NCBI GenBank assembly: GCA_036925085.1
Contig: JAUPFP010000025.1
Coordinates: 496,001-560,000 of the forward strand
Direction of reading: 5' to 3'
DNA: 64,000 bases
Source: Brachycybe producta
Taxonomy: Eukaryota; Arthropoda; Diplopoda; Playtdesmida; Andrognathidae
Position numbers and translations under genes: made by a program. Below are positions 4,801 through 61,065 of this stretch, piece by piece. Position 1 is the stretch's first letter; the number at the start of each line of letters is the position of its first letter. The notes beneath the pieces are model-generated. The model ran no database searches. It was not told where the DNA came from and worked only from the letters and a program-made list of their open reading frames with translations.

Positions 4801-7800
4801 AAATTAAAATTAATTAACTATTCATAAATGGTGTTTATCATAATAAGGTGTGACACCAAACAACAGTCATTGGCAACAAAAAGAAACCCCGAAGCCTACC
4901 TATCTACTCATATGCTGATGTTGTCACCTAACATTACTTTTAATTCTCTATTGAAATACATGTATTCCCTGTTCATATCAAAGTCTACTATGACTTTGAT
5001 ATTAGCATTATTATTCCACCTGACACCTGAGACTTTTTATTTGAAATATTATTTTTGGCAGTCGTTGGATTAGTCTTGGTAATAATTCAACATAAAATTC
5101 TTGAGGGTAATGGTTTTTTAAGAATAATTTAATGATGATATATTTTAAAATAGGCTTTTTGTGTCATTTTTGAAAGGACTCAAATATTTATCTATAAAAC
5201 GTTTATTTTGAAATATATCAACATAAAAGTAATTCAGGTAATCCGTTTCTAATTTCTAGAATTTCTTCGTAGTGTTGCTCTTCTGAAATGCACAATAATA
5301 AGAATTTGTAAATCAGCTTTTAATTGTTATTGTGTTGTTTCTTTCTGTTTAATAGGATACGCTTTACGGATTTTGACCGAACTTCTTGCTTCGTTTACGG
5401 AACAGGACAACATCAGACGTCACTATAAGAGTCGTCTCGTAGGCACTGTTCTAAACGGTTACTTGAGTCTTCGTAAACTGGTTATCCAACGAACGAAAAT
5501 GGTTGACGAGACTCAAGAGAAGCTGCTCGAACTTCTCGAGGAGATGACCACCGGAAACGAAGCCGAAATACAGGCTTTTATGTCCGTATGTGTCGAAACA
5601 GTCAAGAAATATCCTTTGGATGATTTCCGTACGCCGGTCTTCATCTTCGAACGACTCTGTTCGATAATTTATCCGGAAGAGAACGACATGGGAGAGTTTT
5701 TTATGTTTCTCGAGAAGGATCCTCAACAGGAGGATTTCTTGCAGGGTCGTATGTTGGGTAATCCCTACTGTTCTAACGATCCTGTGATGGGACCTTTGAT
5801 GCGGGATGTTAAAAACAAGATCTGTCAGGATTGTGAGCTAGTGGCTCTTCTAGAAGACGACAACGGAATGGAACTTCTAGTCTGCAACAAGATCATTAGT
5901 CTCGATCTGCCTGTCAAAGAGGTTTTTATTTCGCGTTCAGTTATACAACGAAGAAAAAACTTTCTCGTAACTATTTTTTTTTTATTTGAAAATGTATTTT
6001 AGGTTTTCAAGAAGGTTTGGCAAGTTGAAAATCCCGAAGGTGAATCGATGCGTATCGTTTATCGCATGCGTGGACTTATGGGTGATGCGACTGAAGAATT
6101 TATCGAGTCGCTGGACGCTCGAGGAAGCGAAGAAGTGGACACGGAAGAAGTTTACAAGATGGCGAGTTGGATGGCAAGCTGCGGAGGTCTTCAGGTTATG
6201 TTAGATAGGTAAGTAAAAAAGGGTCTCGAAACCTTGATTTTCAGGTTCAGTTTTAGTCTTTCCTCGGGCGCAAAATTTCCTAATTATGACTCCTTTTCTA
6301 ATTGTTACGATGGTTGTGTTTTCTAAAGGCTGTTCTCGTTGAATGATTTGTCTCGAGGGCGCCCTCTGTTGTTGGTCCTCCTCAAACTTTTCGGTTACTG
6401 TACCAAAGTGAAGGCCAATCGTCAGGCTCTTTTTAAGCCGGAGATGAGTTGCATTAACACGATGCTTCACGTCTTACGTTTGGCACTCTCCAACGATGGC
6501 GAATCGCTCAATACGCCACCCGGCAATCCTTCGATCACGGAACAGTTACTTCAGATCATGGAGACGATTCTGGTGGAGGCTAGTTCTTCGAGTCCATCTG
6601 AGTATCCGGCGTTTGCCGAGACGAGTGGAGAAGCATCCGATATCGCGTTCCTTCTCGATAAACTCAGTTCTTTAGTCGTTCGTAATTCGGCTCCGATTCT
6701 GCAACGTCTTATGAGAGTCTTGTCGTTTTTGGCGACTGGAAATCCGGAAAAGTTGAATTTGCTCGTTGAGTTCTTTCAACCGTGTACCGATTTTGTTCGT
6801 TTCGACCTTGATCATCAGGCGAGCGACGACCTGAAAGTAATTTTGACTCCTTTTCTTTACTGTGCATTCCGTTTAGTCATCGACATATTCAGTTGTGTGA
6901 CGTCACGTTTATATTTATTTTTTGTAGATGGAGTGTCTTTGTCTTTTGGCTGGAAGTATCGAACGTAACGATCTTGGAAATCAACTGAAGGATCGAATGG
7001 TCGATGCAGGAATCGTTCGAAATGCATTGCAGTACATTCAAACGAATGCGCCACCGATTCGTTCCGCACTTTTTCTCGATTCTGACGAACTCAAGGAGTT
7101 CATTTCTAAGCCTTCACTTAAATATATTCTTAGACTTCTTACGGGACTTTCGTATGGTCACGAACGAACGCAGGTAATTACTTTTATAAACGGAAAATGT
7201 CTCTACAACTCTTGGAGTTATTCGGCTTCCTTATTTGCATATTGAATAATACGTTTTAAAATGAATCGATTCATTGAAATTATAAACAGAGCCTGGTGAG
7301 CGCCCATTGCATTCCGATCATCCATCGCTTGGAACAAGTTTCGAGTGACGAACACGTGGGATCTTTGGCCGAGAATCTGATGGAAGCTCTAAGAGAGAAC
7401 TCGGAAGTTGCTCAGAAGATCGAAGAAGTACGAAAGTTGACACGAGCCGAGAAGAAGAGACTTGCGATGGCCATGAGAGAGAAACAGTTGGCCGGACTCG
7501 GAATGAGTACTAACGAAAGAGGACAGGTTTGAAAAACGGCCCGGTTACGAGGAGAGAAAGAGAGAGAGAGGTTCATATTCATAACACGGATTTCGTGGTT
7601 TCGTTCTTCTTCAGGTGACAGCCAAGAGTTCGATTCTACAGCAAATGGAGGAATTGGCCGAAGAGAACGGTCTCGTCTGCGTGATCTGTCGAGAGGGTTA
7701 CCGATTTCAACCTACCAAAGTCCTCGGCATTTATACATACACGAAACGATGCAACGCCGAAGATTTCGAGAACAAACAGAGAAAGACTCAGGGTTATTCG

Positions 7801-10588
7801 ACGGTGACTCATTTCAACGTCGTTCACGTCGACTGTCACATGTCGGCCGTGAGATTAGCAAGAGGAAGAGACGAATGGGAGAGTGCCGCACTTCAGAATG
7901 CGAACACTCGTTGCAATGGACTCCTTCCGTTATGGGGTCCTCAGGTTACGGAATCGGCATTTGCAAGTTGTCTCGCTCGACATAACACTTACTTGCAGGA
8001 ATGCACCGGTCATAGAGACATCGGTTATCCGTCGACGATTCACGATCTAAAACTTCTGTTACTTCGTTTTGCAAACGAGAAATCGTTTAGCGAAGACAGT
8101 GGTGGGGGAGGGCCACAAAGTAACCTTCATCTTATTCCGTACATTTTGCACATGGCTGTTTACGTCATAAACACGTAATTTAATGCGCTTTCTCAGGGAT
8201 TAAGGTGGGCGTTCAGAGACGAGCGATTTTTAGTGGTCGAAAACGTGGTTGGCGTGTAGCTCCAAACAACCGATCACTCGAGTCGATTGCCTGCCAGGTT
8301 GGGAAGTGGTCGTAGTGTAGATTAATGAACTACAATTATTAATTCATTCAACTATACTATTGCCACTTTCTAACAGCGGGCAGTCGACTCGAGTGGTCGC
8401 TTTCGGTCACATGCCACCACTTTTTGCAGTTCATTTTAAACGCTAAAAAGTCGCTCATTTGTGAACGTCATCAAAATTAAGAAGCTGTTAAGAATATGCA
8501 AACGAATCAATAATCAGTGGCAAAGAAGAAATTGAAAGGGTTTTAGAAACTAGAAAAGCAAATAGATCGCTTTAAGTTGGCTTTAGAAACTAGAAAAGCA
8601 AGTGGATCGCTTTAAAAGTTGGTTTTAAAAAGTTTAAAAGCAAATGGATCGCTATAAGTTGGATTTAGAAACTAGAAAAGCAAGTGGGTCGCTTTAAAAG
8701 TTGGTTTTAGAAACTAGAAACTAGAACTCTGGTTATTCTGTAGGTGTATTTGTGAGAAAAATTGAGAAACTTGAAAAGTGTTCTAGAGACTAGAAGGATA
8801 ACTGATTGACTTTACATGTTTGATATCTTTCAAAATAAACTTTTATAAACAAAAATTAAAAAAAATAATCATCTGCTTAAAGTTGAGTCATTTTCAAACT
8901 TAAACATAAAAGGCTTATTTTGAAAGATATAAACATAAAAATATTCTTCACTGATTGAGCAACCCTTATAGTTTCTAAAACACATTCAAGTTTCTTTGTA
9001 ATTTTGTACCCGAAAGACAAGAATAATCAAGAGTTTGAGGCGACGTTTACACTTTAAAACCACCTTAAGTGATTCATTTACTCTTCTTCTTAATGTTGCA
9101 TTCTGAAAATGCAAAATTACCAGTTCCATTCCATTATTCGGTTTCATTTGCATATTTTGCATTGGCTTCCTATAAAAAACGTTTTAAAATGAAACAACTG
9201 TTAAATAATTCTGATAGGTTTTTATAACAATGTGTTTTAAAACGTAGAACGAGATCGGTTGCGAAAGAAGATGAAGCACTGAATGTGGCGTATCAGTTGC
9301 CGTCTTCAGCCTGGTTCGAGAACAGTTACGAAGTGGAAGGTCCTCTGTACAAGACGACAATGTCTCTGATCGTCCATTCTCCATCCAAGTGGAAACAGAC
9401 AAGAATTGGTTTTCTGAAACAGTTGATCGCATTGGCACATTGTCGTCATCTTTATCCGAAGGGATCGAACAGAATGTCCGATAAGGAGGTCAAAGAATAT
9501 GGCGTCTATAAGCCGACATTGATATTCTACGCGCTCGTCAATGGAATCTACTCTTATGTCTTTAAAGTGATCAACGATTTGTTTTATATTTTATCTAATT
9601 TTATGAACAGCTGATTTTCAAACTATTGATTATTCTGTCTTTCAGCTGAAAGAGCAAAATTAAGAGAAACTAGAAAGTGTTTTAGAAACTAGAAGCGTAG
9701 CTAAATCACTTAAGGGTAATTTCATGTTTGATATCTTTCAAAATAAACTTTTTATGTCAGATTTGTTGTCTATACAAAGTTTATTTTGAAAAATATTAAC
9801 ATGAAAATACCTGTAAGAGATTGAGTAACCCTTCTAGTTTCTAAAACACGCTCAAGTTGCTCTTTATTTTGCACCTGAAAAACATAATAGCTAGAGTTGT
9901 TAAAAACTAGAATAATTTTGTGAATGTGCCATATTGCGTTTAGACGATTTTCAATTTTCTGACATGGTTAAACATTCCAGTCAGCAAACATTCATAAGAA
10001 ATTGAAAGTGTTTTAGAAACTAGAAAAGTCATTTAATTCATGCTTTTTATTGACATAATTTTTTTTTAAAAAAGTTGGATCATTTTAAAACTTGCATAAA
10101 AAGCTTATTTTGAAAGATTTCAAAATGAAATTGAGCTACCCTTCTAGTCTCTAAAACACATTCCAGTTTCTCTGTAATTTGCACCTGAAAGACAGAATAA
10201 TCAGAGTTTGAGAGGGGCGTTTACAGCTTAAAACCAAGTTAAATATGAAGTTTAATCGTTGGGGTTTTTTTTTTTGGAAATTCGCAGAAGGTTAGCTGTG
10301 GATCGGAAACCGATTGGCCGACAACTTTGGCCGATTACATTCGTAACAACGATCAGCCACTTCTGGAAGGTGGAGATAAGCTGTTAGCTCACTATCAAGA
10401 CGAACTCCTTCCTTGTCAGTCATTCGCCGAGTTTTGTGATGTGACCGGTAAACGTCAAGTTCCATTTCCTCCGCGATATCCTTCGATAAAAACGTTTTAA
10501 ATATGTTTTTTTTTTGTTAGATCTTCTGAGTGACATTGCTAACCCAGACGACTTTTTCTCAGACGCTCTAAGAAGCATTCATAGTTAA
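1..10588 (+). CDS. UBR4: UBR4 (poe/pushover) E3 ubiquitin ligase, 3' part, 14 exons
   Basis: Spliced gene-level entry; it is cut by the left edge of the window. Exons: 1-1814, 2167-2386, 2454-2999, 3085-3795, 3870-4089, 5356-5921, 6003-6208, 6329-6836, 6928-7173, 7290-7526, 7615-8174, 9248-9566, 10288-10447, 10521-10588. All junctions keep phase, giving about 2126 residues, roughly the last two fifths of a protein that is about 5200 residues in vertebrates. Recognised collinear UBR4 blocks include [78 protein letters not shown] and [10 protein letters not shown]. The family recognises N-degron substrates through a UBR box (upstream of this window) and transfers ubiquitin through a C-terminal zinc-binding module present here in exon 11. 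Small introns of about 70-120 bp alternate with introns enlarged by foldback repeats. The gene is convergent with Notch, 6.5 kb away. Confidence 0.95.
1843..2150. repeat. FB-A foldback element in UBR4 intron 1
   Basis: The left arm has AGAATGGTAGCTGAATCACT and TTTTAAAATAAACTTTTTAT; the right arm repeats them inverted as AAAGTTTATTTTGAAAGATA and ACCCTTCTAGTTTC. It starts about 30 bp after the donor of the preceding exon. Confidence 0.8.
2167..2386 (+). CDS. UBR4: UBR4 exon b
   Basis: It follows a TTACAG acceptor and completes the split Arg codon. The peptide [18 protein letters not shown] followed by KYAKFDY is nearly identical to the UBR4 family and finishes the Cys-rich zinc segment. The donor GTGAAG lies in phase 0 after Ala-Leu-Glu. 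Confidence 0.95.
2454..2999 (+). CDS. UBR4: UBR4 exon c
   Basis: The acceptor is TTTTAG at 2453. The peptide starts [13 protein letters not shown], passes through a Gly/Ser low-complexity loop, then a Cys-rich block (CCDC, CYGC) and ends near [14 protein letters not shown]. The 3' boundary is the least certain in the gene. The only in-phase GT is the weak GTCCAG at 3000; homology requires the exon to end just after DYNLR. Confidence 0.85.
3085..3795 (+). CDS. UBR4: UBR4 exon d
   Basis: It begins after AAACAG with [16 protein letters not shown], a conserved UBR4 armadillo-like stretch, and continues through [17 protein letters not shown] and the Lys-rich [14 protein letters not shown]. It ends RKKE at a GTAACC donor in phase 0. 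Confidence 0.92.
3870..4089 (+). CDS. UBR4: UBR4 exon e
   Basis: It begins [13 protein letters not shown] after TTATTAG and carries [18 protein letters not shown], a conserved UBR4 block. It ends with one base of a Gly codon before GTGGGT, so the intron is phase 1. The following intron of 1.27 kb is filled with foldback repeats. Confidence 0.92.
4108..4580. repeat. FB-A foldback with doubled left arm
   Basis: GTGTTTTAGAAACTAGAAGG occurs twice (near 4190 and 4308) before a single right arm with AAGTTTATTTTGAAAAATAT. Confidence 0.8.
4630..5310. repeat. FB-A foldback split by unrelated DNA
   Basis: The left arm is at 4630-4706 and the inner and right arm at about 5085-5310. Between them is about 380 bp of unrelated AT-rich sequence. 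Confidence 0.65.
5356..5921 (+). CDS. UBR4: UBR4 exon f
   Basis: It follows TTTAATAG and encodes one of the best conserved UBR4 parts: [19 protein letters not shown], then [19 protein letters not shown], then [12 protein letters not shown], then [15 protein letters not shown]. It ends DLPVKE in phase 0 at GTTTTT, an AT-rich donor supported mainly by homology across the junction. Confidence 0.94.
6003..6208 (+). CDS. UBR4: UBR4 exon g
   Basis: It begins [20 protein letters not shown] after TTTTAG and carries [17 protein letters not shown] plus an acidic stretch. It ends inside an Arg codon at a consensus GTAAGT donor. Confidence 0.94.
6329..6836 (+). CDS. UBR4: UBR4 exon h
   Basis: It begins [19 protein letters not shown] and aligns with the UBR4 segment that follows the acidic loop. 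About 169 codons, mainly hydrophobic helical-repeat sequence. It ends ASDDLK in phase 0 at GTAATT. Confidence 0.92.
6928..7173 (+). CDS. UBR4: UBR4 exon i
   Basis: It begins [20 protein letters not shown] after TTTGTAG and ends YGHERTQ in phase 0 before GTAATT. The conserved [10 protein letters not shown] matches the human LRLLRGLA region. Confidence 0.92.
7290..7526 (+). CDS. UBR4: UBR4 exon j
   Basis: It begins [20 protein letters not shown] after AAACAG, followed by the highly charged, probably coiled [17 protein letters not shown]. It ends NERGQ in phase 0. The 88-bp intron that follows contains a short GA microsatellite. Confidence 0.93.
7615..8174 (+). CDS. UBR4: UBR4 exon k, catalytic zinc module
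   Basis: This exon encodes the C-terminal E3 module, described in recent work as a hemi-RING with an adjoining UBR4-specific zinc fold. Visible ligand candidates are VCVICREGY, the [10 protein letters not shown] cluster and [15 protein letters not shown]. Downstream [10 protein letters not shown] and the Gly-rich loop before HLIPYILHM are family hallmarks. It ends with two bases of a Thr codon at GTAATT. A role in E2 recruitment is inferred from the family, not shown by this sequence. Confidence 0.95.
8545..8708 (+). repeat. 40/42-bp alternating minisatellite
   Basis: Four units start at 8545, 8585, 8627 and 8667, with the next start at 8709. The periods are 40, 42, 40, 42, so the true unit is an 82-bp dimer. 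The core is AGAAACTAGAAAAGCAARTG, part of the FB-A arm, followed by GATCGCT. Confidence 0.85.
8710..9075. repeat. FB-A foldback
   Basis: Both arms are present (GAGACTAGAAGGATAACTGA on the left, AACCCTTATAGTTTC on the right), and the tail ends in the typical GACGTTTACACTTTAAAACC. Confidence 0.8.
9248..9566 (+). CDS. UBR4: UBR4 exon l
   Basis: It completes the Thr codon to give [14 protein letters not shown], matching the human NTTRATS context across a 1.07 kb intron. The peptide includes [15 protein letters not shown] and [17 protein letters not shown]. It ends SYVFK in phase 0 at GTGATC. Confidence 0.92.
9605..9935. repeat. FB-A foldback, near full length
   Basis: It starts at CAGCTGATTTTCAAACTATT, runs through both arms and ends near TAATAGCTAGAGTTG. 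A good model copy of the family. Confidence 0.85.
9985..10250. repeat. FB-A foldback, inner part reduced
   Basis: The left arm GTGTTTTAGAAACTAGAAAA and right arm GAGCTACCCTTCTAGTCTCT are present; the left inner segment is shortened. Confidence 0.75.
10288..10447 (+). CDS. UBR4: UBR4 exon m
   Basis: It follows TTCGCAG and encodes [19 protein letters not shown] then [21 protein letters not shown]. This matches the WSCSLAEYIRHNDMPIYE region of vertebrate UBR4. The donor is GTAAAC, phase 1. It is too short to appear as an isolated ORF and was found by homology. Confidence 0.9.
10521..10588 (+). CDS. UBR4: UBR4 terminal exon n with stop
   Basis: It follows TTGTTAG. The peptide [19 protein letters not shown] ends IHS and a TAA at 10586-10588, matching the LLSEITDPESFL C-terminus of UBR4. 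It is a 68-bp exon found by homology and phase. Confidence 0.9.
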
Positions 10589-11368: not shown

Positions 11369-12017
11369 TTTCCCGCCCACCTTGACTTCTGGACCGGAAA
11401 TGTTGTTAGTAATGGCGGGGAATTTTAGCAGGTGTTTTTTCCGCGTGTAATTAAGTTTTAAGTTATGCAATTTAAAGACTTTTTAAAGGTGTTTATTGTC
11501 TTCAAACTGTTTCTAAAGTTGGAAAAAAATAGTCGCGTTTATAGTTTTATTTGTGTTTTATTTTGTTTAATTGGTTAAATTAGTTTTAGAAAAAAGTGTT
11601 CAGATTTAGTTTCAAAACTCATCAGCTGATTTGTCAACTTAAAGGTACGGAATTTCATTTTCATTCTTATTTTTGTCACTTTTTTGTTATTTATTTTCTA
11701 TGTTTAATGCTTTCGTTTGTGTTCATTTTAAAATTATAATGTGAAATATTGTGAATCAAGTGTCTCTTTAGGGTCCTCACTGAAAGCAACCGGAAAAAAA
11801 AATCGATTTGTGTTTAAATGCCCTGAAAATGCCTCAGGAGAAATCAATTGACACCAGAATTTGTTAAAGGAATCCCTAATATAATTATAATAATATAAAT
11901 AGTACAAAGATTAAAGAACAAAATCAGAAGAAGAAAAAAATCAGCACATGAGCCAATGTGTTGGCTTCACTGTGGTTTTACTTGTGGGTTTTTAAAATTA
12001 TTTTTACGTATTTTTAC

Positions 12018-12161
12018 GGTGGCGCTGATCAAGCGCCAAATTGAACAAGCGCCAAATTGAACAAACGCCAATCTGAACTAACGCCAAACTGAATAAGCGC
12101 CAAATTTTTGGCTTTTATTCAGTTTGGCGTTTGTTCAATTTGGCGCTTGTTCAGTCGCCCC
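12018..12161. mobile_element. hAT-17 non-autonomous element, short form
   Basis: A 144-bp palindromic element beginning GGTGGCGCTGATCAAGCGCC and ending TTGTTCAGTCGCCCC, flanked by perfect 8-bp duplications ATTTTTAC (12010-12017 and 12162-12169). An 8-bp duplication points to the hAT superfamily. The arms consist of GCCAAATTGAAC-type units of 17 bp. No coding capacity. Confidence 0.8.
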
Positions 12162-12313
12162 ATTTTTACCAACATTTTAATGGATGTTTCGTTTTCTTAG
12201 AAATTCCCGATTTTGAAATATTTTTTTAAAAAAATAGAATCGCACTTACCAATTTTTTGTCATTCTATCACTCGATCAGCATATATTTAAGGTGCACATT
12301 ACACTTTGAACCA

Positions 12314-12485
12314 TCAAAATTGGACAACTTTAAATATGAAAAATATAAACATATTGCCGCCGCGACTGCTGTGTATTTTAAAAACTAACGTTTTTTCTTT
12401 AACAGTGGGTCTATGGGCTCAATAGAAAAACGATGCTAGCGCCCTTTATGGAGATTTTTCGAAGTAATTTTGCGATGTGTAGCCT
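12314..12485 (+). repeat. 172-bp direct repeat, left copy
   Basis: It shares AAAATTGGACAACTTTAAAT, AGAAAAACGATGCTAGCGC and TTTGCGATGTGTAGC with 12671-12848. The two copies flank an FB-B element. Confidence 0.85.
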
Positions 12486-12492
12486 CTCAAAA

Positions 12493-12671
12493 GAGAGGCA
12501 ATTAGAGACAAACAGAAGTTGGCTCCGCTTTTTTTTGGTTGGTTATGTAGTCTGACGTCACATGCTCCGCCCTTTTCAATGTCGAACCACACAACAAACC
12601 AATTAGAAGTTGCCGTTCATCATAAAAAGGGCGGAGCCAACTTCTGTTCATCTCGTTTTCTAATTGCCTGT
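12493..12671. repeat. FB-B palindrome, left arm internally deleted
   Basis: GAGGCAATTAGAGACAAACA and AGAAGTTGGCTCCGC at the left pair with AACTTCTGTTCATC and TCTAATTGCCTGT at the right. The inner left arm is missing, so the hairpin is asymmetric. Confidence 0.75.
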
Positions 12672-12848
12672 TCAAAATTGGACAACTTTAAATATGAACA
12701 ATAAACATATTGCCTCCGCGACTGTTGTGTTATTTTAAAAATTAACATTTTTTTCTTTAACAATTGGGTCTATGGGTTGAATAGAAAAACGATGCTAGCG
12801 CTCTTTGTGGAGATTTTTAGAAGTAATTTTTGCGATGTGTAGCATCTT
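12671..12848 (+). repeat. 172-bp direct repeat, right copy
   Basis: The partner of 12314-12485, nearly identical in order and spacing, with scattered substitutions. Confidence 0.85.
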
Positions 12849-12908
12849 AAGTGTATTCAGAGAGCTATAATTTCTAGTTTCTAAAATATTTTGAATTTCT
12901 ATTTAGTG

Positions 12909-13179
12909 CAGGGCCGTCTTTAAGTCTTTTGTGGCCCCTGGCACAAGATTTATTTGAGGCCCCCTCAACCATGATGATTTCCATTGTATTTATTGGAACA
13001 GGACTTTTATGAAGTAAAATCGCATAAGTGAATAGGCCTATTTATTTAAAATAGTAAAATGTTTTTGATGTCCGTTAAATTGAAATTAAAGATTTAAAAA
13101 TACAGAAAATAGTGACAATTAACTGACTGAGGCCCTAGTTTAGACGGAGGCCCAGTTGGCCCCCATTAAGATGGCACTG
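12909..13179. mobile_element. hAT-like non-autonomous element
   Basis: 271 bp from CAGGGCCGTCTTTAAG to CTTAA-like inverted end CATTAAGATGGCACTG. Flanked by perfect 8-bp duplications ATTTAGTG (12901-12908 and 13180-13187). GGCCCC-rich subterminal sequence is typical of some hAT families. It is inserted in an FB-A fragment. Confidence 0.8.
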
Positions 13180-14089
13180 ATTTAGTGTTAATTTAAGAAA
13201 AAAAGAAGAAAAACGCAAACAACTTTTAAATTATGGATGATGAAACAAAAGTTTTTTTTTATTCCACTGGGTTTCACAAAATGTAAAAAAAAATTTCACT
13301 TTTCATTTCTTTTTGGAATGATTTTTTTTTTTTTCTCGAAAAAAAAATATCGAAAAATATTAATAAAAATTCTTCCAAAAACATATTTTTTAAAAATAAA
13401 ATTCCTCATTTTTTTTCTTGTTCAAAAATTATGAGGTTACATTTTTACGTCATTTTTTTATAATATGGCAAAAACCTTGGATCTTTTTTTTTTTTAAATT
13501 TTTACAAACAAATTTAAAAATATACAAAAAAAAATGGCTGAAAATTATTAAACGAAAAACTTGAGACAAATTAAAAAGAGGGTCGTTTCCATAACCACAC
13601 ACATTACAAATATTATTACATTATTACAAAAAAACAATCATATTATAATAATAATGATGATGATATTACAAAGTACACTTTTTTTATACTATTGGCCTTA
13701 TACATTATATTTTTTTTTTAAAAAAAGGGTTAAAAAAATATTATATAAGAGAGAAAAAAAAAAATGGCGCTTAAATTCAATTTTCTTAACATATATATAT
13801 ATTAAAAAAAAGCTAAGAAAGTTGAAAAAGCATTTATTATTATTTGTACATTTTGTTTTTAGCTTCAAATGATTTATTTACACAAATACAAAAAGTCTAA
13901 ATTACAATATATAAAAAAAAATTGTCTCAATTTTAAAAGAAAAAAATCTTGAGATTCGATTTTTTTTAAAAAAAAGTCTTAAAAGTCTTTAAAAAGTCTT
14001 TCCAAATCTTCCAAATAATAGTAAAAAAAAATTAGTGACGTCACACAACCTCTTCTCAAGAACCCTCCCCTTTTTTGTGGTCTTCAATA

Positions 14090-14143
14090 GGTGTCACTAC
14101 TTGTCTCTCATAATGAGACAATTTCAATAAAGTGTGACACCAG
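14090..14143. repeat. Short foldback (GGTGTCACT ends)
   Basis: GGTGTCACTACTTGTCTC is followed by ATGAGAC and AAAGTGTGACACC in inverted order. GGTGTGACACC recurs at about 4847 in UBR4 intron 5. Confidence 0.5.
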
Positions 14144-14176
14144 GAAGAAAAAAAAAAAACTGGAATGTTTTCTTTA

Positions 14177-14315
14177 TACGGAGCTCTGAAAAGGACATTT
14201 TTATTTTTATTTTTTTTTGTCAATTTCTATAATCTGTTGCAATCAATTAAGTAATTATTTGCAACAGATTAGAATTGATAAAAATAAAAACAAAGGTCCT
14301 TTTCAGAACTCCGTA
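14177..14315. repeat. FB-F palindrome, short form
   Basis: TACGGAGCTCTGAAAAGGAC at the left pairs with GGTCCTTTTCAGAACTCCGT at the right. The inner arms AATCTGTTGCAA and TTGCAACAGATT flank a short loop. Confidence 0.85.
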
Positions 14316-14330
14316 TATTTTTGTTTAATA

Positions 14331-14445
14331 AAAAAACTAGTTCAAGTCAGAAAGCAACTCTAGACGGTGCTGTTGTCTCAAATAAGACAACAGTGCCACC
14401 TAGTGTTGCTTTATATGATATTTTATGACTTGTTTTTTTATTAAC
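14331..14445. repeat. Foldback with GTTGTCT stem
   Basis: AAGTCAGAAAGCAACTCTAG and GGTGCTGTTGTCT pair with AGACAACAGTGCCACC and CTAGTGTTGCTTTA then ATGACTTG around a short loop. Confidence 0.75.
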
Positions 14446-15291
14446 AAATTTGGTTGTACAAAAAATATATTAAAAAAGGATAATTTCTAAAATAAAAACT
14501 TTCAGAAAATGTTTTTTAATTTTCATTTTTTGTTTTTTTTTTTCTTCTTCTAAAACTAAAACATTCAATGAATTTGAATTTAGTTTTTATTATTTATAAA
14601 ATAATAAATAATAGAAAAAAGCTAAATTACAAACTTGAAATATATATAAAAAAAATTGGTCCCAATTTTTTTTTGTAAAAGGGGATTTTTTGGAAGATTC
14701 GAGAATATTATTTCGGTTGTGGAAATTTGAACTTTTTTTTTTAATCAAATTTCAAAAGAAAAGAATTTCTTTTTCGTAGAAGAAACTTTAAATTTTTAAT
14801 TTTTTTCTTTCTCTAAATCGATAATTTCTCAATTTATTAAAAAAAAAATCTTTAAAGTATTTTTTCTTCTACTTTTAAAAGGAAAAGAAAAGAAAAACAA
14901 CTTTTCTTTAGAAATTCTGATGGAAGACAAATTGGAATTAATTAATAATAATTTAAAAAAAAAAGCAATTTCGTCGAAGTTTAATTTTCTCTCGATAAAT
15001 TAAAATTCAAATTTCAATACTTTTGAATCCTTTAGAGAGAAAACTTTGCTTTTATTATTATTATTATTAAGATTCTTCTTTTTTTCATTCAAAAAAGAAG
15101 AATTATTTATATGAAAACCATTTTTTTTTAGGGTTTTTTGATACATTATAACAAAAAATCTAAAATTTTGACCATCTTTTTTTACTTAAGCTCTAAACAA
15201 ATTAAAAAAAAAATTGACCACGGTCCACTTTGCATTAAGTTTTTTTCTTCATGGTTTTTTTGTTTTGATTTTACAAAAATTTCAGATAAAA

Positions 15292-15462
15292 ATGAAATTT
15301 CTTTCAAAAAAGAATCGAAATTTCCTTCAAAAAGAAATAAAATTTCCTTCAAAATGAAACGAAATTTCCTTTAAAAAAGAAGTGAAATTTCCTTCGAAAA
15401 GAATCGAAATTTCTTTCGAAAAGTAGTGAAAATTCTTTAAAAAAGAAATGAAATTTCTTTAA
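15292..15462 (+). repeat. 22-bp tandem array
   Basis: About eight degenerate units of GAAATTTCCTTCAAAAAGAA type, downstream of the Notch stop. Confidence 0.8.
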
Positions 15463-15639
15463 ATTTTCAATAATTAAGGAACAATCTCTGCACCTAGTGA
15501 TCGAACTGTGCAGAACTATACGATCTTTTGTTTTATTTTCATTTATTTCTTTACTTTAAACTTAAAACTTAGTTACCATTTGACTTCATATTTCATAAAG
15601 AGTTAAAAAAAAACAGCGAAATTTGGAGTTAAAATTGGT

Positions 15640-15995
15640 TTACGAAAAGCTGATTTTCGAACTCTTGATTATTCCTGTTTTTCCGAAGAGCAAAATTTAG
15701 AGAGAAACTAAAAAGTGTTTTTTTAGAAACTAGAAAAGAAGCTCAATCACTTAAAAAGGTATTCTCGTATTGATATCTTTCAAAATAAACTTTTTACAGA
15801 CAAAAATTAAAAAATGTCTTTTAAAAACTCACTTAAAAAGCTTATTTTGAAAGATATCAAACATGAAAATAACTTTTAAAGTGATGTAGCGACCCTTCTA
15901 GTTTCTAAAACACTTTCAAGATTCTCTTTATTTTGCTTATTGAAAGACAGAATATAATCAAGAGTTCAAACGCTTTAAAATCACCTTAAATGACA
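15640..15995. repeat. FB-A foldback, near full length
   Basis: It begins AGCTGATTTTCGAACTCTTG, has both arms (TTTCAAAATAAACTTTTTAC and AAGCTTATTTTGAAAGATAT) and ends AATCAAGAGTTC then TTTAAAATCACCTTAA. Confidence 0.85.
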
Positions 15996-16100
15996 AAAAT
16001 TTTGAATAAAAGAAGTTACGAGAAATTAACGTTAACAGAAAAAAGGGGACCGGGGGCCCCAAATTGTGACCCTCAGAAATTAAGGACAGCTGGATCCTTT

Positions 16101-16298
16101 ACCCATCTTAAACGATGGTGAAGGGTTGGAGGTGGAGGCTAATAATGTGGTTGAAGCATGTTATTGTTGTAGAAGATGTTAAGTTTAGTTTCCGACGCGA
16201 CATCGAAACGCGAGTTGGAACATTCAGTGCTGTTGTTACGAGCACTGAATAGTTAAGTTAGCCTCCACATCCAACCCGCGTCGTCGTTTACGATGGGT
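16101..16298. repeat. FB-J foldback
   Basis: The left arm ACCCATCTTAAACGATGG plus GGGTTGGAGGTGGAGGCTAA pairs with TTAGCCTCCACATCCAACCC plus GTCGTTTACGATGGGT. The interior also contains CATTCAGTGCTG and CAGCACTGAATG-like inverted words. Confidence 0.8.
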
Positions 16299-17101
16299 TA
16301 CAGCCATTGTGATCAGTAAAAATCCCTATTTTAACCATTATAAAACATGAAGCCAACGAGTTACGTGAATGTCGAGAAATGGAAGAAAATTATCTTCGAA
16401 GTCTTTCAATTCTTATCGAAATTTGAAAGGAATTCGAGGGAGAAAAAAAAATACCCCTTTGAGAACGAAAAAAAAAAAAATCCGAAGCAAAGTGGTTTGT
16501 AGTCAAAAAAATAAATTCCTGATTAAAATTCTCAATAAAAATACAACTTTCTACTTTTGTGACCATTTTTAAAAGTTTCAAAATAAAATACTTTTGATGG
16601 TATGATGTTTTTTTTTCTTCTTCTTCAAAGAAAAATCGAGTGAAAAATAAAAAAAAATTATTAAAAAAAAATGCCGCAAACATAAAAAATATACATTATT
16701 TTTGTCGTTTTGATCGTAAATATATCGTTATCGTGTCAAAGAGTATATTGCTTCTTCGTAATTTTTTTGTTTTAAATAATTCTTAAGACACACTTTGTGA
16801 CCAAATTTTGTTATTATAAGAGAGTAACAAATCCCTTTTCTGTTTATCGAAACAAAGCAGGGGTTTTTTGTTGTTGTTCTCTTATGAGGTTTTTTCAATT
16901 ACCGAAAACAACCAACTCGCGAATGCCACACCGGGGTTTTTCTTCTTCTTCTACTATTCAGCCCGACTCTTCGAAGGCAAGTCGTCGACACGCACCACGA
17001 ACATCACAAAAAAAAAGTATTTTTTGTGGATAAGAATGGGGGCCTCTTTGATTTTTTTTTTCCCCTTCCTCATTTTTGCAAACAGATTTCCTCATCTCCT
17101 A

Positions 17102-54470
<37,369 letters not shown>

Positions 54471-54878
54471 CTATAATCAAAATTAATACAAAAATATTGA
54501 AACAATTATGGAAAAAAAGTTGGTTCACAAATTAATTATAATTTCAAGAGGCAAATTAATGAAACATAAAATGGTTGTTTAAAAAAAAAGCAACCTTAAA
54601 AGAGAGAAGAAGAAAAAACGTTTACTATTCTAGTTTTTAACTAAACTTTATATTAATTCAAAGTTAATAATAATCAAGTTAAAATACAAAATCCTTGTAA
54701 AATAGGCCTAATTCCCTTTCCACTTTAAACACTTTGAAATTATTTTATTCCTTATATTTTTATATCATAAATATGAAAAAGACAACTATAGTCATTGCAC
54801 TATAACTTGAAGCATATGACGTCAGACGGTTTAGGTGGTTCTCACCAAAATAACTATTATGACTATTTAAGTTCTGTC

Positions 54879-55177
54879 TAATACCTTGTACACACATCTT
54901 GATAATTTAAATAATAAACGTGTTCTACAGAGCCCTGTGAAGGACAAACAAACAATATGTCGAATTCAATTTATTCAGTTAATAATCTGAAAATATTAAG
55001 TTAATACTTAATAATATAGAAACTATTGACAAAATATTGATTTAGTATTTCAATTTATAATATTAATAATTAAAGTCAATTTTTATTTGGTGTTCATGTC
55101 CTTAACTGGATTCCGTATAATTCACCTAAACACATTTAATTTTGAATTCATTTAACTCGTGTGTGTACAAGGTATTA
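54879..55177 (+). repeat. FB-E element, copy 3
   Basis: TAATACCTTGTACACACATC at the left and GTGTGTGTACAAGGTATTA at the right; TACAGAGCCCTGTGAAGGAC at 54925. Confidence 0.85.
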
Positions 55178-55216
55178 GTACGATTTTAATTTGACAATGA
55201 TTATCTAAACTTTGTC

Positions 55217-55537
55217 TTAATACCTTTGTACACACATACAGTTAAATGAATTCAAATTAAATGTGTTTAGGTGAATTACACGGAATCCTGTTAAGGACAT
55301 GAACCAAATTAAAAATTGACTTTATTATTAATATTTTAAAAATTGAAATACTAAATCAATATTTTGTCAATAGTTTATATAATTATTACTTAAGTATTAA
55401 CTCAATATTTTGAGATTATTAACTGCATAAAATGAATTGGACATATTGTTTGTTTGCCCTTCACAGGGGGCTCTGTAGAACACATTTATTATATTTTAAA
55501 TTCATTTACATTATCAGGTGTGTGTGTACTAGGTATA
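55217..55537 (-). repeat. FB-E element, copy 4 (inverted)
   Basis: Head-to-head with copy 3, 40 bp apart. TTAATACCTTTGTACACACA at the left and CAGGTGTGTGTGTACTAGGT at the right; CCCTTCACAGGGGGCTCTGT inside. Confidence 0.85.
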
Positions 55538-55562
55538 AATGACAATCATTTGTGATTGTGAA

Positions 55563-55620
55563 TTATCCCTTCTGCCACAGGGCTTTTTCGAGCTGATTGC
55601 AGGCAGGTGTACTGAGTTGA
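55563..55620 (+). repeat. LINE/SINE-like 3' tail, copy 2
   Basis: CCCTTCTGCCACAGGGCTTT then GAGCTGATTGCAGGCAGGTG, then TGAATTGAATAATAA. Same layout as 39638-39700. Confidence 0.4.
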
Positions 55621-56227
55621 ATTGAATAATAATTTGTCTTCTGTGCTTAAAGTCAAGGATCATCTTCTGTTATGTTTACTAAGTAACTAAGGTAACGGGT
55701 TCCTATTTTTTTCTTGTTATTACTTCTCGGCTGGTTGATGGTGTGTGTCAGTAACTATAATAAAAAAAACACCCACAATCCTCTCTTTCTATCTCATCTA
55801 CCTGTGCCTTAATTATTACCCACCCCCCCCCCCCTAAAAAAAGAGATGACAAAAAGCGATGATCAGGAGGACTTTTTTTTACAAAATGGTTTCACGGTTG
55901 GCAAATGTTGCTGAACCAAGAATTAAGAGATTAGATCAATTGAAAGATGTTCATATTATAAGAGAACCAGTGAATATTATTGTCCAGTGTAAATCATCCT
56001 TTTTTACCACCCACAACACACCCCCTCAACCTTTTTGATGTAATTGTTGTGTGATCAACACCATGTCCAAATCATCATCATTATTATTATTATGGTGGGA
56101 TAAGGTTGGATTATTGGATTCTCTCTACCTTATTTTGAATACATTGCAAAATAGGATTACAATGAATAAAAATATGCATATATATTGCAGTTAATGGACA
56201 ATACTGGATTATGAATGCTACTGAATG

Positions 56228-56673
56228 GGTGGCTCTGATCTAGCGCCAAACTGAACTTGCACTAAATTGAATAAACACCAAGCTGAATAAGCACCAAATT
56301 GAACAAATGATAAACTGAACAAGCACCAAATTGAACAAACGCTAAGCTGAATAAGCGCCAAACTGAACAAATGCTAAACTGAATAAGCACCAACTTGAAC
56401 AAACGCCAAGCTGAATAAGCACCAAATTGAATAAGCACCAAATTGAATAAGCACCAACTTGAACAAATGCCAAGCTGAATAAGCACCAAATTGAATAAGC
56501 ACCAATTTGAACAAACGCCAAGCTGAATAAGCACCAAATTGAACAAATGCGAAGCTGAATAAGCACCAAATGGAATAATTGTCAAAATTTTCTAAATTAC
56601 TCTGTAAAGCGTTTGTTCAATTTGGCGCTGCTTCATTTCAGTGCTTATTCAATTTGGCGTTTGATCGGCGCCA
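56228..56673. mobile_element. hAT-17 element with AAGCACC satellite
   Basis: Starts GGTGGCTCTGATCTAGCGCC and ends GGCGTTTGATCGGCGCCAC. The interior is a 17-bp array of CTGAATAAGCACCAAATTGA type. It has no clear target duplication. Two long - strand frames here (CLFNLVLIQ repeats) are the array read through. Confidence 0.75.
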
Positions 56674-56837
56674 CTTTAAGAAATTTTCGAAAAATGCCAA
56701 CAAAAAAAAGTTTATTTTAAAAAATATCAAAAACATGGAGGGGGAAAAAAAACTTCCTTGACGATTCTAGTTTCTAAATAGATTTCCATTTCATTTAAAA
56801 AAAAAATACTTCTCAAGTTCTGAAAAGCTGCTGCAGC

Positions 56838-60800: not shown

Positions 60801-60900
60801 AATAGTATTGATAAGCGTTTTAGAAATCAGAACTTCATAATTGACAACTTTCAAAATAAATATTTCCATAAAACGTTTATTTTTTAAAAAGACATTAATA

Positions 60901-61065
60901 TTCAACTACCATTCTAGTTTCTAACAGTCCTTTAATTTCTCCTTGGTGAAGTAGATTCAACTACCATTCTAGTCTCTAACAGTCTTTCAATTTCTCCTCA
61001 GTGAAGTAGATTCAACTACCATTCTAGTTTCTAACAGTCTTTCAATTTCTCCTTAGTGTTGGTTC
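60901..61065 (+). repeat. 55-bp tandem triplication in an FB-A arm
   Basis: Units begin TTCAACTACCATTCTAGT at 60901, 60956 and 61011, with exact 55-bp spacing and only a few substitutions. Confidence 0.9.

Follow-up and report, generated by a model that had tools for sequence, protein, structure and literature searches.

A foldback element family of Brachycybe producta with ends and internal arrays made of 16-bp units and a TTAGG-carrying form

Seeding of repetitive DNA by transposons is a known class of phenomenon, and the closest precedents for the family described here are Tetris and miDNA4. The tandem repeats in the inverted ends of Tetris vary and feed a satellite (PMC4079207), and satellites of miniature inverted-repeat transposable elements (MITEs), miDNA4 and Xstir among them, have been described (review PMC12628747). 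Here we analyse 64,000 nucleotides of Brachycybe producta (contig JAUPFP010000025.1, C25:496001-560000; hereafter the window), which hold four members, E1 to E4, of a family of foldback elements; genome-wide searches cover the 295-Mb assembly. We suggest that this is very probably a recently active, non-autonomous, cut-and-paste foldback MITE with diverged 16-bp units as its ends and variable arrays inside. A further reading, to which we give an even chance, is that of a mobile satellite with hardly any need of unique DNA, whose whole body is its own 16-bp end motif, repeated in inverted orientation, which moves as a pure array and grows in place, whose arrays evolve independently and whose cored form is a major carrier of TTAGG repeats into chromosome interiors.

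The exact left tip occurs 648 times genome-wide and its reversed control not once. Copies were taken from 78 sources: the window, 30 loci that cover every one of the 31 exact tips on C1, 18 loci for the exact tips on C2 as far as 10.97 Mb, and 29 loci drawn from the top BLAST hits with E1; L029 duplicates E1 and was dropped, and the BLAST-picked loci are biased toward E1-like copies. With the tips, a target duplication of at least 7/8 bases and a boundary slide of at most 1 base, 60 elements in 59 sources were delimited, spanning 144-1654 bp. A single foldback plan is common to all 60. It opens at the left with a tip, itself a diverged unit, and n forward 16-mers; a core may follow, and then come m forward 16-mers, a spacer, reverse 16-mers and the right tip; thus the inverted ends are themselves 16-bp units. 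The tips are GGTGGCGC and GGGGCGAC, and the spacer has 8 nt (AAAAATTT in 44/60).

The elements come in two forms. Coreless copies (21/60) contain only 16-mers, 4-nt tips and the spacer, and in 17 of the 21 the length is an exact multiple of 16. The other 39 copies are cored, and all their cores (40 core segments in 39 elements) belong to one family, in which AAAATGTGATAAACACATTG is followed by a 5-bp array that varies and then by about 80 bp of tail. The 35 delimited copies of C1 and C2, whose choice did not depend on likeness to E1, comprise 8 coreless and 27 cored ones. The core arrays mix TTAGG, TTTGG and ATTGG; in the 31 copies read from the anchors we count 468, 103 and 81 of these 5-mers, respectively, and 11 others among the 5-mers sought, with 1 to 106 per copy.

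In the window, the left-end motif GGTGGCGCTGATC is exact at 12018 and 32246 and has one mismatch at 35082 and 56228; with up to two mismatches it has 6 matches, against 0.31 expected from shuffling. The preliminary description had reported four elements of different lengths with common ends and a 17-bp unit. The relationship of the ends and the four lengths (144 bp, 445 bp, about 489 bp and about 448 bp for E1 to E4) stand, with exact left ends only at E1 and E2, while the period of the arrays is 16 bp. The right ends are inverted 16-mer units, which makes the elements foldbacks. Beyond E1 to E4, 2 isolated unit-like 16-mers (at least 13/16) lie in the window, with 0.9 expected and a maximum of 2 in 30 Markov simulations.

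E1 (12018-12161, plus strand) is coreless, and its 144 bp equal 9 x 16. It consists of a tip, five forward 16-mers, the 8-nt spacer, three reverse 16-mers and a tip, and as single-stranded DNA it is predicted to form a long hairpin (z -12.3). E1 is flanked by a perfect 8-bp duplication, ATTTTTAC, at 12010-12017 and 12162-12169. E2 (32246-32690, plus strand, 445 bp) is cored. By unit decomposition its left array has nine forward 16-mers (32250-32393), the first of which is part of the tip, and is followed by a 125-bp core (32394-32518) with a TTAGG-like array at about 32413-32452, seven forward post-core 16-mers (32519-32630) and, at 32631-32690 in minus orientation, the inverted arm of the 8-nt spacer, three reverse 16-mers and the right tip. 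Its duplication, TTTCTAAC at 32238-32245 and 32691-32698, is also a perfect 8 bp. The core of E2 is not composed of 16-mers; hence the earlier explanation of the length differences by unit number holds for the arrays, which do vary, and misses this core. Its telomere-like second array was also absent from that account. By eye, the target flank of E2, CTAGTTTCTAAC (32230-32250), resembles a 55-bp tandem repeat at window positions 60900-61058, which is free of the element there.

E3 (35082-35570, plus strand) and E4 (56228-56675, plus strand) are decayed coreless copies, and inspection of their flanks by eye gave no target duplication. In E3 the right boundary is approximate and the right tip matches the consensus at 11/20. 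Both ends of E4 are of the left-tip type (18/20 and 17/20). We note that E4 and L037 each have two left-type tips, unlike the usual left/right pair.

The perfect 8-bp duplications of E1 and E2 had been recognised before, and such duplications recur in further copies. They are perfect in 51 of the 60 delimited elements, a count conditional on the selection by duplication. When duplication played no part in the choice, 34 of 53 exact-tip pairs show 8/8 and 6 show 7/8, and when the right partners are shuffled among the 60 delimited copies, 7/8 or better is reached in a mean of 1.06 and at most 6. Eleven copies outside the 60 were scored by hand with a boundary slide of +/-3, and L034 and L073 have 8/8.

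The joined flanks of 14/60 elements match other fetched sequence across the junction. One of these matches, that of L052, lies in the array of another copy and three are gapped at the junction, which leaves 10, some of them of modest identity or inside repeats of their own locus. The clearest related empty sites, each with a single copy of the target, are those of E1 (in L027, 89% over 110 columns), L048 (in L022) and L076 (in L015). The empty sites of E1 and L048 show that pure-array copies therefore move. Together with the duplications, the empty sites bear out the earlier statement that copies moved as units. The elements are also short and non-coding, have terminal inverted repeats and occur in many copies, as in MITEs, and their inverted repeats are made of tandem subrepeats, as in foldbacks.

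Several copies depart from the usual structure. In L017:532-2130 another left tip lies 134 bp into the element; with L052, this indicates nesting or exchange between family members. By eye, L001 at about 1350-1513 and L075 from 147 are old short relatives, with a left tip, few units and other middles; they are possibly a pre-array form of the family.

Duplications of 8 bp fit the hAT, Merlin and P superfamilies. Merlin elements have 5'-GG termini and terminal inverted repeats 24-462 bp long, and they duplicate 8-9 bp of the target; internal tandem repeats are described in some of them (PMC8101967). The tips and duplications found here fit the Merlin pattern, and we consider membership in this superfamily as a tentative placement, somewhat short of an even chance. 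However, the DDE_Tnp_IS1595 domain (PF12762) has 0 candidates in the assembly, although a lost, unassembled or intron-split partner is still conceivable.

We consider it rather unlikely that the family belongs to hAT, as a MITE moved by one of the genome's many hAT transposases. Its duplications have the right length and hAT transposases are at hand: of 350 candidates 150 were scored, giving 149 matches to the dimerisation domain, and some of these have long open frames. However, hAT termini start in the CA type, and the tips here start with GG. The association of the listed hAT matches with the family is not significant, as 3 of them lie less than 10 kb from C1 tips against 1.0 expected (P about 0.09), and a scan of 7.5 kb that allowed 2 mismatches placed no family tip at the ends of the long-frame hAT at L013 387-2927, whose own ends are not established. 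The label hAT-like, drawn earlier from the 8-bp duplication, is thus not kept, given the GG termini and the lack of a linked partner transposase.

L013:387-2927 (plus strand) is itself an open hAT-type transposase frame of 846 aa, with an equal domain score at five other places in the genome, which suggests that hATs of this type were recently active. We considered that this hAT ends in CAGGGCCGC and dropped the idea: the motif lies 3' of the frame, but its 5' counterpart is direct, not inverted.

Mutator duplications are 8-11 bp long, a range that includes the 8 bp found here. Membership in Mutator (MULE), the class of most foldbacks, would agree with the foldback structure and with the case of Tetris, which has 8-10 bp duplications and is assigned to Mutator (PMC4079207). 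We nevertheless regard it as doubtful, as there is no match of a ninth base beyond the 51 perfect duplications (the next two bases agree in 9/51 and 8/51).

Whatever the superfamily, the arrays differ widely between copies. A unique stretch of the core, 64 nt long, could be read in 36 copies, and in 34 of them it has equal length and 0-3 mismatches to one form. In 38 cored copies the left array has 3-29 units, the post-core array 2-34 and the right array 3-19, and the core spans 91-1270 bp; the number of reverse 16-mers is 5 in 23 of these copies and 3 in 9. The length of the left array is correlated neither with that of the core (rho 0.23, P 0.17) nor with that of the post-core array (rho 0.12, P 0.49). 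Hence, the arrays change fast and independently of one another. The main unit of amplification is a 32-bp dimer, as the identity at lag 2 is 0.319 against 0.124 after shuffling, with 0/500 shuffles as high.

Units are only slightly more alike within runs than between runs (identity 0.152 and 0.094). The first forward unit is of the same type in 51/60 copies and the last in 45/60, and different loci have in common the unit types that adjoin the tips, those beside the core and those near the hairpin centre. Much of the array was therefore inherited with the element and existed before its dispersal.

Other units are private to one copy. E3 has a run of five identical AAACTGAACAAACGTC units (35247-35326, plus strand), and an exact genome-wide search finds their CGTC tandem dimer at E3 only, in 4 overlapping matches. 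In E4, the stretch 56408-56503 (plus strand) has a GCACC-type tandem dimer at 56408-56439 and 56472-56503, and these 2 matches are the only ones in the genome. A third variant, in nine plus two units, is confined to L078 genome-wide (9 matches), and this copy has intact tips and a perfect duplication. Thus local growth is real. For E3 and E4, both with decayed ends, the simplest reading is growth after immobilisation.

The clusters of variant units noted earlier (CGTC in E3, AAGCACC in E4) are therefore present, and their attribution to local expansion after insertion is right for the single-locus runs of E3, E4 and L078 and too narrow for the arrays as a whole, whose unit types are common across loci. 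It is improbable that the arrays were complete in a few master copies and later only shrank or recombined, with the apparent local growth due to the loss of sister copies: the common unit types and the small excess of identity within runs favour it, but the five units of E3 and the eleven of L078 are of types that no other sampled copy has, their tandem dimers are confined to one genomic locus each, and the run of E3 is uniform despite a right tip decayed to 11/20.

The preliminary description had also proposed the birth of a satellite. In assembled sequence, an exact genome-wide search with five copies of the majority 32-bp dimer (160 bp) gives 23 overlapping matches, and the longest perfect run ends at 288 bp (C64). 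There is thus no assembled free-standing satellite of the majority dimer, to which variant the search refers; other variants and collapsed heterochromatin lie outside it.

The core connects the family with TTAGG, which is probably the telomere motif. A minus-strand TTAGG tract lies near the left end of C1 and is perfect over at least positions 5001-5545, and the 50-mer (TTAGG)10 matches 450 times in forward and 7016 times in reverse orientation, counting overlaps. Telomeric sites inside chromosomes are commonly interpreted as scars of fusions or as products of repair. Here, 166/429 interstitial (TTAGG)3 starts genome-wide (about 39%) lie in the core of the element, marked by its exact left anchor. 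The counted starts are (TTAGG)3 after a G that itself follows a non-G, so that other start contexts are outside both counts, and as the anchor is matched exactly, copies with an altered anchor are missed. In the fetched sample, which was selected by tips, 115 of 133 TTAGG islands are in delimited elements, 17 in other family copies and 1 elsewhere. At C6:487122-489053, five TTAGG island starts lie about 479 bp apart, none of them among the listed exact-anchor matches; this is possibly a separate tandem repeat containing telomeric motifs.

We suggest the following course of events for the foldback MITE. The 16-mer would be a repeated putative recognition site of the transposase, as has been proposed for Galileo and Tetris, and extra units would then be tolerated or favoured. 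In this hairpin-prone DNA, slippage, unequal exchange or gap repair may alter the length of the arrays, whether the element is moving or stays in place. Coreless copies would have arisen by deletion between the similar units that flank the core. The core may have taken its TTAGG array from telomeric DNA, or been seeded with it by such DNA, and transposition would then have spread the array passively.

Several points weigh against this interpretation. Among the 53 exact-tip pairs, 13 score only 6/8 or less for the duplication, and 9 of the 11 hand-scored copies outside the 60 reach only 4-6 of 8. Neither an autonomous partner nor a transposase could be tied to the ends of the family, and non-autonomy is read from the lack of a transposase-sized frame, with many copies viewed over only 1.1-1.5 kb. 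The longest stop-free stretch in the 60 elements has 207 aa and lies in a repeat-rich copy of 1599 bp; undelimited copies among the 49 exact tips of C1 and of C2 to 10.97 Mb have at most 157 aa stop-free within 7 kb, or at most 105 aa within 1.1-1.5 kb. Finally, because cut-and-paste elements can abandon a donor site, a single-locus run may have grown at an earlier position of the element; such a run proves growth after the split from all surviving copies. L072, where a tip is followed by non-array DNA, was considered as the end of an autonomous element and dropped, having neither a long frame nor a second copy among the loci.

Elsewhere in the window, pieces of a UBR4-like gene (PF13764) and Notch-like pieces (ankyrin and EGF domains; the best solved match is Notch) are found at 5373-8178 and 17102-24120. 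There is also a 39-base poly-G run at 25891-25929, as well as AG/TC runs.

With hundreds of copies, many of them young, and with countable units, the family is a natural experiment on the growth of tandem arrays inside mobile DNA. It allows separating the parts of an array inherited with the element from those that arose at one locus, and its cored form offers a concrete means by which telomeric repeats reach interstitial sites. In literature searches on TTAGG with transposons or MITEs, foldbacks, internal repeats and the tip letters, the titles and abstract openings listed give no match, and they name no element built wholly of its own end motif together with a TTAGG-carrying sister form.

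Galileo has longer repeats than the family here, another duplication length and other termini. MiDNA4 differs from it in superfamily and in the duplication, which is TA. In the P. gingivalis MITE a minisatellite lies within the MITE, as its title and the start of its abstract have it; this element is bacterial (PMC4596501). Merlin elements with internal tandem repeats are alike in GG termini, 8-bp duplications and a repeat number that varies by copy; however, the described examples are transposase-bearing protist elements (PMC8101967), and no Merlin transposase was found here. Galileo, a P-superfamily foldback of Drosophila, has internal tandem repeats in its terminal inverted repeats with additional transposase binding sites, as cited in PMC4079207. 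In miDNA4, a Tc1/mariner MITE of Xenopus, an internal satellite varies in copy number and is proposed as a satellite source, but, as the review presents it, this repeat is captured and internal (PMC12628747), whereas the 16-mer here doubles as the end sequence.

Tetris, with its TIR-220 repeat in Drosophila virilis, is likewise a non-autonomous foldback with 8-10 bp duplications and variable tandem repeats in its inverted ends; in the account of PMC4079207, the repeat has a stretch in common with the end domain, the array size depends on the allele and no autonomous partner was found. Unlike the family described here, Tetris is reported there with a unit of about 220 bp inside terminal inverted repeats that reach 1,735 bp; its complete copies number three, and its satellite-like arrays extend over kilobases (PMC4079207). 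The family of Brachycybe producta has no long array found so far in the assembly, but a 16-bp unit that makes up virtually the whole element in 21/60 copies, 648 exact tips and a telomere-like core.

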